DNA of 64,000 nucleotides, from contig CALIFY010000001.1 of the NCBI GenBank assembly GCA_938021675.1, positions 62,001 to 126,000 of the forward strand, in the 5' to 3' direction. The number at the start of each line of letters is the position of its first letter. The stretch's first letter is position 1. Under the pieces are notes generated by a model. The model saw only the letters and a list, made by a program, of their open reading frames with translations, was not told where the DNA came from and made no database searches. Both the position numbers and the translations under genes were made by a program. The DNA is from an uncultured Acidimicrobiales bacterium. GTDB lineage: Bacteria; Actinomycetota; Acidimicrobiia; Acidimicrobiales; SZUA-35. Below, piece after piece: positions 39,494 to 39,870 of this stretch.

Positions 39494-39565
39494 GAATCCA
39501 CTGAGGAATCCACTGAGGAATCCACTGAGAAATCCACTAGGGAATCCACTGGCGAATCCGCCGGG
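39494..39565. repeat. 12-bp tandem repeat, six decaying copies, upstream of the selenoprotein gene
   Basis: Unit GAATCCACTGAG, three perfect copies followed by three with increasing changes, then a partial GAATC. It fills the space between the divergent flavodoxin and selenoprotein promoters and ends 26 bases before the TACGAT box. Confidence 0.85.
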
Positions 39566-39591
39566 GAATCATGAATGGCTATCCAGGGCAC

Positions 39592-39597
39592 TACGAT
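39592..39597 (+). promoter_or_regulatory. -10 box TACGAT of the selenoprotein gene
   Basis: TACGAT ends 6 bases before ATG 39604. This independent signal supports the start upstream of the in-frame TGA rather than the GTG at 39661. Confidence 0.55.
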
Positions 39598-39603
39598 CGA
39601 TCT

Positions 39604-39870
39604 ATGACCCACAAAATTGGAATCACATACTGCGTTCCGTGAGACTACTCAGAGCACGCCGTGAGCGTGACGAACGACCTGTTGTCGAACTACCAGCACG
39701 TGATCGAAGAGCTCCGGTTAGAAACCGGGAGCCGGGGCATCTTCGATGTCGTTGTGGACGGGCAACTTCTCTACTCCAAAGCCCAAACGGGCCGACATGC
39801 TGAACCCGGTGAGGTTCTTCAGCTTTTTACCGATCTTGTTGGACCGGACGTCAAACGCTTCGGCACCTGA
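39604..39870 (+). CDS. Selenoprotein of the Rdx (SelW/SelT/SelH) family, UGA read as selenocysteine
   Basis: 88 residues if the TGA at 39640-39642 is decoded as Sec (U13). The start reads MTHKIGITYCVPU, so the active site is C10-V-P-U13, the CxxU redox motif of Rdx thioredoxin-like proteins. The sequence continues DYSEHAVSVTNDLLSNYQ, then family segments GSRGIFDVVVDG, LLYSKAQTGRHAEPGEVL and LVGPDV. Homologues commonly have YCVPC at the same place. ATG 39604 is 6 bases after a TACGAT box. Without recoding only a 69-residue piece from GTG 39661 would be called, lacking the active site. The TrmH gene follows 39 bases later. Confidence 0.9.
39655..39669 (+). other. Candidate bacterial SECIS hairpin
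   Basis: CACGC pairs with GCGTG around the five-base loop CGTGA. The loop begins 17 bases after the UGA, in the range used by bacterial SECIS elements, which lie within the coding sequence and bind SelB. The stem is short; a longer CTCA/TGAG pairing (39648-39651 with 39662-39665) competes. Confidence 0.45.

Follow-up and report, generated by a model that had tools for sequence, protein, structure and literature searches.

The window analysed here, a stretch of 64,000 nucleotides from an uncultured Acidimicrobiales bacterium, carries on its forward strand a gene for an 88-residue SelW-like selenoprotein of the Rdx family (39604–39870). Its reading frame starts at ATG 39604 with MTHKIGITYCVPUDYSEH..., where TGC 39631 is codon 10 and U marks an in-frame TGA at codon 13 (39640–39642), which we infer to encode selenocysteine (Sec). 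Residues 10–13 read CVPU, and a second TGA, the ordinary stop as read from the sequence, closes the gene at 39868–39870. The preliminary description had placed the start at this ATG and the TGC-to-TGA codons at the CxxC position of an Rdx-family protein; direct reading of the sequence agrees. The Pfam Rdx profile (PF10262) aligns with residues 4–75 of the read-through product, across the TGA, at 63.6 bits (E 1.9e-17; cut-off 22.6), and the N-terminal CxxU aligns with the CTQC of solved relatives, which places the protein in the family. A PF10262 search of the whole source genome, a draft of 4.45 Mb in 99 contigs and 95% complete, returned a single place, the SelW-like gene itself, with one TGA inside (E 1.7e-14).

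The mechanical list of open reading frames gives at this locus only GTG 39661–39870, 69 amino acids long. An automatic caller had indeed been predicted to begin there and to miss the active site. The locus exposes a gene-calling error: standard callers would lose the active site, and the same is likely to happen repeatedly across the order.

A gene with a flavodoxin domain (PF12641; 39023–39460) runs divergently on the minus strand, and a SpoU-family RNA methyltransferase (PF00588; 39910–40743) follows downstream on the plus strand. Both often occur nearby in relatives: each was found in 30 of the 75 loci searched, all within L023–L057, a set in which L052, L055 and L057 are repeats. Within that set, both genes escaped detection in L049, L053, L054 and L056; in addition, L042 yielded no flavodoxin-domain gene and L051 no methyltransferase. 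The flavodoxin match of L039 covers 37 residues only, and two loci, L025 and L036, have the flavodoxin gene on the far side of the methyltransferase, not beside the selenoprotein gene. Neither neighbour was found in L058–L097. Within the order, synteny with a flavodoxin-domain protein is suggestive only; a function drawn from the neighbours was rejected, as ordinary synteny does not settle it. Between the flavodoxin and selenoprotein genes, a 12-bp unit (GAATCCACTGAG) repeated 6.4 times in tandem (39494–39570) takes up about half of the intergenic space. This array was not found within 400 nt upstream of 32 other orthologues, five of which have other short arrays.

Conservation of the TGA codon

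Searching 60 related genomes yielded 33 matches in 32 of them. Exactly one TGA occurs in 32 of these matches, and the codon itself was checked in 29 of the matches; the match without TGA is a 28-residue piece that ends short of the site. With the window's own genome included, 33 of 61 genomes have a match, at 34 places, of which 33 contain a single TGA. Among the close matches, the named ones come from Acidimicrobiales, Acidimicrobiia and Candidatus Microthrix records. We then read 46 loci codon by codon (L022–L067, with the window's own locus as L022; four of them duplicate another over the 72 nt compared): codon 13 is TGA in 45, and TGC in L061, a Bathyarchaeota record. The script that located the site sought C-x-x-U or C-x-x-C only, so that other residues there would escape it. 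Locus L052, an Acidimicrobiales record, is identical to the same-genus locus L026 over 72 nt.

In a wider sample of the phylum, 56 of 396 genomes matched, at 57 places; one TGA lies within 40 of these and none within 17. At 30 phylum loci the site itself holds TGA in 16, TGC in 12 and TGT in two (14 Cys codons together). The gene has, as expected of a bacterial selenoprotein gene, an in-frame UGA where homologues hold Cys, and the proposal that relatives would keep Cys or TGA at codon 13 holds: one or the other is kept there. On both sides of the TGA, dN was below dS in all nine of the ten comparisons for which dS was defined, with only 11 codons on the upstream side. One genome that has the orthologue, G035, also bears a second, divergent match (contig 106, 1773–1961; 37% identity) with one TGA.

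That a sequencing error or a mutation turned a Cys codon into TGA and left a truncated pseudogene, as the lone 69-residue fragment in the list of reading frames might suggest, is hardly credible: 32 of 33 matches elsewhere contain one TGA, the exception being the piece off the site, and the sequence is conserved on both sides of the codon. The SelW-like gene looks broken by a stop, yet it is intact, and its TGA is almost certainly read as Sec.

Selenocysteine machinery in the genome and the phylum

All four sel genes occur in the window's own genome, as had been anticipated from the TGA and as a bacterial selenoprotein gene demands. In profile searches selA has one match, at 334.9 bits. The selB frame (266 bits against a cut-off of 242) adjoins selA on the same strand of contig 28, and the same contig holds the tRNA-Sec gene, selC, with anticodon TCA. 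A second place above the tRNA-Sec cut-off was rejected, being a tRNA-Ser according to ARAGORN. The selD gene (373 bits) lies on the minus strand of contig 65 (22154–23071) and itself includes one in-frame TGA, in HGAGUGCK. An fdhA-like gene on contig 82 (11781–13655) scores 639.9 bits, under the model cut-off of 666, and has an in-frame TGA in SCNRTUHAPSVVG, which we take to be the usual Sec site of formate dehydrogenase. This gene lacks the first 48 positions of the model; elsewhere on the contig (16230–16400) another frame, also with one TGA, matches model positions 1–57. Since the SelW-like, SelD and FdhA-like genes all have an in-frame TGA, at least three genes here look Sec-coded, and we regard these three as candidate selenoproteins of the genome. 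The AhpD-like CMD family has no match in it.

Across the 61 genomes (own and 60 relatives), SelA exceeds its cut-off in all 33 with a SelW-like match, one short piece included, compared with 14 of the 28 without a match, two of the 14 being short pieces (Fisher p 1.8e-6, uncorrected for relatedness). Because SelA is above cut-off in 47 of the 61, these counts indicate that the order Acidimicrobiales often has Sec machinery. In the phylum sample, SelA accompanies the TGA-type match in 36 of 40 genomes and is found in 199 of 356 others, in Fisher tests that ignore relatedness, and in five of the 16 genomes that have a match without TGA.

Overall, 234 of the 396 phylum genomes have SelA above cut-off, although SelA alone is no proof of Sec decoding. 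This count speaks against the statement in the preliminary description that selenoproteins are sparse in Actinobacteria, as does PMC1794560, where one passage names three phyla with many selenoprotein families, Actinobacteria being one of them. In a sponge metagenome, SelA and SelB are reported together in most symbiont bins, from various phyla (passage of PMC5649159).

A UGA may also be read outside the Sec machinery, by near-cognate read-through or through a genome-wide reassignment of the codon. The residue inserted at codon 13 is, after all, deduced from sequence, and four of the 40 TGA-type phylum genomes (G070, G129, G236 and G300) have no SelA match and no SelB above cut-off. These four are drafts, 68–98% complete; a missing contig could explain each of them if selA and selB adjoin as they do here, and either missing contigs or a real loss of the Sec machinery would account for the pattern. 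Against a reading outside the Sec machinery stand the TGA that also ends the SelW-like gene, the presence of tRNA-Sec, SelA, SelB and SelD in the genome, the alignment of the site with Cys in homologues, and the company of SelA in 33 of 33 close genomes with the gene. We consider it very unlikely, and decoding of the UGA as Sec remains our reading.

A SECIS-like hairpin and a promoter-like box

A hairpin, CACGC-CGUGA-GCGUG, occupies 39655–39669 on the plus strand; its loop (39660–39664), which includes GTG 39661, begins 17 nt downstream of the UGA. We aligned 33 close orthologues without gaps from the UGA and took as stem the nucleotides 14–20 and 26–32. Changes on both sides occur in five of the seven pairs, in 18 cells. 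Covariation amounts to 0.215 versus 0.142 ± 0.012, a level reached by none of 500 shuffles and none of six slid controls; the count of double-change cells likewise surpasses every shuffle and every slid control. For doubly changed pairs, 38 of the 500 shuffles attain the observed number, and further pair types are fewer than in the average shuffle. RNAalifold, run unconstrained, recovers the inner five pairs, four of them with compensatory changes. The 33 sequences do not all keep the seven pairs: the outer two are lost in 24 and 15 of them, and an inner one in seven.

Codon choice is constrained at the same place. Among 68 columns, codons 18–22 rank 1, 2, 3, 6 and 7 in codon bias (L048, which has an insertion, was excluded): all 32 sequences encode Val20 by GTG, and AGC serves for Ser21 in 24 of 25. 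The constancy of GTG, a legal start codon, could be taken to mean that the true product begins at GTG 39661, with no active site. The GTG, however, sits in the hairpin loop, the adjacent non-start codons are similarly fixed, and the conserved upstream coding sequence together with a −10-like box favour ATG 39604. A start at the GTG has next to no credibility; we reject it, as we do the pseudogene and UGA reassignment, and retain ATG 39604.

A passage of PMC13188914 describes a bacterial SECIS model with a loop of 3–9 nt, a stem of 4–16 bp, a G in the first two loop positions, a distance of 16–37 nt from the UGA and an energy of −7.5 kcal/mol or lower. The hairpin has this geometry, with its loop CGUGA, 5-bp stem and spacing of 17 nt. 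Its energy in the window's own genome is −5.4 kcal/mol for five pairs and −6.7 kcal/mol for a 19-nt piece, above the −7.5 of that model, for which the passage leaves the length used unclear. Among the orthologues, 17 of 33 reach −7.5 on the 19-nt piece and eight of 33 as an unbroken stem. Folded as a single sequence, the 71-nt stretch is no more stable than shuffled versions of it (z 0.32). In the same source the first and a later base of the loop mostly pair; here a G and then a U follow the first base, and the C and A are unpaired. The 33 orthologues have the loops CGUGA (26), CGUGC (six) and CGUGG (one).

In 24 more distant Sec-type genes, the loop of the best hairpin lies 21–22 nt from the UGA in 20. 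It lies at 17 nt in L084, L092 and L093, which belong to the window's class, and at 29 nt in L065. In the window's class, therefore, the SECIS-like element seems to sit about four bases out of register with the majority. Apart from L084, L092 and L093, the Sec-type loci among L078–L097 number 13, and all of these have the loop at 21–22 nt. Best hairpins after the TGA of the 24 distant genes have a median of −8.4, against −3.7 after the Cys codon of 15 homologues; this comparison leaves aside the close group (median −6.9) and the repeats L052, L055, L057 and L066, and one Cys homologue, L096, has a hairpin of −8.6. A hairpin with compensatory changes and an unusual codon constraint fits what is expected of a bacterial SECIS, though it is weak in the window's own genome.

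Altogether, we hold it highly probable that the locus encodes an intact SelW-like selenoprotein with a Cys10-Val-Pro-Sec13 motif, whose UGA is decoded by the genome's own Sec machinery by way of the hairpin. SelD would supply selenophosphate, SelA would convert Ser-tRNA-Sec to Sec-tRNA-Sec, and SelB, acting on the hairpin at 39655–39669, would bring the latter to UGA 39640; these pathway steps are established knowledge, summarised in a passage of PMC1794560. From its family and CxxU motif, the product would be a small redox protein, probably a thiol/selenol oxidoreductase in which Cys10 and Sec13 would form a selenylsulphide. The preliminary description took codon 13 for the resolving cysteine; it is the second position of CxxU, and the attacking residue may be either of the two.

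Six bases before the ATG stands a −10-like box, TACGAT (39592–39597, plus strand), precisely where the preliminary description had put one. Of 33 orthologues, 31 have a TAnnnT motif that ends 4–8 nt ahead of the start (at 6–8 nt in every case), versus three of 297 control windows farther upstream. Motif and spacing were chosen after that earlier remark and with some upstream sequences known, so the scan was not blind. A Shine-Dalgarno-like (SD-like) motif occurs in none of the 33 orthologues. The box is found at the flavodoxin-domain gene in 20 of 27 cases and at the SpoU gene in one of 18. At 25 more distant Sec-type loci, in a count that includes the repeat L066, 17 have the box and four an SD-like motif. 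Open reading frames of the window have the box in three of 40 cases and an SD-like motif in six of 40, both underestimated because the first possible start was taken.

Leaderless transcripts are known in actinobacteria. The upstream boxes suggest, with rather better than even odds, that the SelW-like genes of this group and of many distant relatives are expressed as conserved leaderless transcripts, with the 5′ end at or next to the start codon. If so, ribosomes would start without a Shine-Dalgarno sequence and meet the SelB-dependent UGA no more than about 16 codons from the 5′ end, and Sec decoding on leaderless mRNAs would be routine in a broad bacterial group. With a probable leaderless mRNA, a UGA at codon 13 and a hairpin in the first 70 nt, the gene would offer a compact natural system for SelB decoding near a 5′ end. 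In the literature searched, which left subscription papers mostly outside, we found no account of a leaderless selenoprotein mRNA. Leaderless mRNAs and SelW are handled in separate passages of PMC11955535, and in PMC3847290 and PMC8211752 the leaderless or selenoprotein term sought occurs in the reference list only.

Comparison with known SelW-like proteins

SelW-like selenoproteins of bacteria are already known, and the novelty of this one is modest. Passages of two surveys report ten in prokaryotes (PMC1794560) and 427 in ocean samples, where SelW-like proteins and SelD were the most widespread (PMC2398784). The present gene has in common with these prokaryotic proteins the family name and the CxxU that PMC2398784 gives as their motif; those passages do not name Acidimicrobiales. 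The main texts of PMC13188914, PMC12013277 and PMC5029168 make no mention of Acidimicrobiales or Acidimicrobiia, and no paper on Microthrix with selenocysteine was found in the literature searched. The present gene differs further in its SECIS-like loop, placed at 17 nt and mostly CGUGA among its orthologues, from the majority of the more distant Sec-type genes, with their best hairpins at 21–22 nt.

Campylobacter jejuni likewise has a bacterial selW with a UGA, in another phylum; a passage of PMC11955535 describes that UGA as read by tRNA-Sec, with proteomics peptides beyond the Sec site and a full-length product.

The nearest solved structures by sequence are Rdx proteins such as SAV_2001 (PDB 3dex; E 3.6e-9) and Atu0228 (PDB 2fa8; E 7.8e-8). 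They are of the same family and of the Cys type, with YCTQC where this gene has YCVPU, so that Cys takes the place of Sec.

Mammalian selenoprotein W also has a CxxU motif with Sec at residue 13, and its SECIS lies in the 3′ untranslated region. The motif and the position of Sec are common to both proteins, whereas the place of the SECIS differs.
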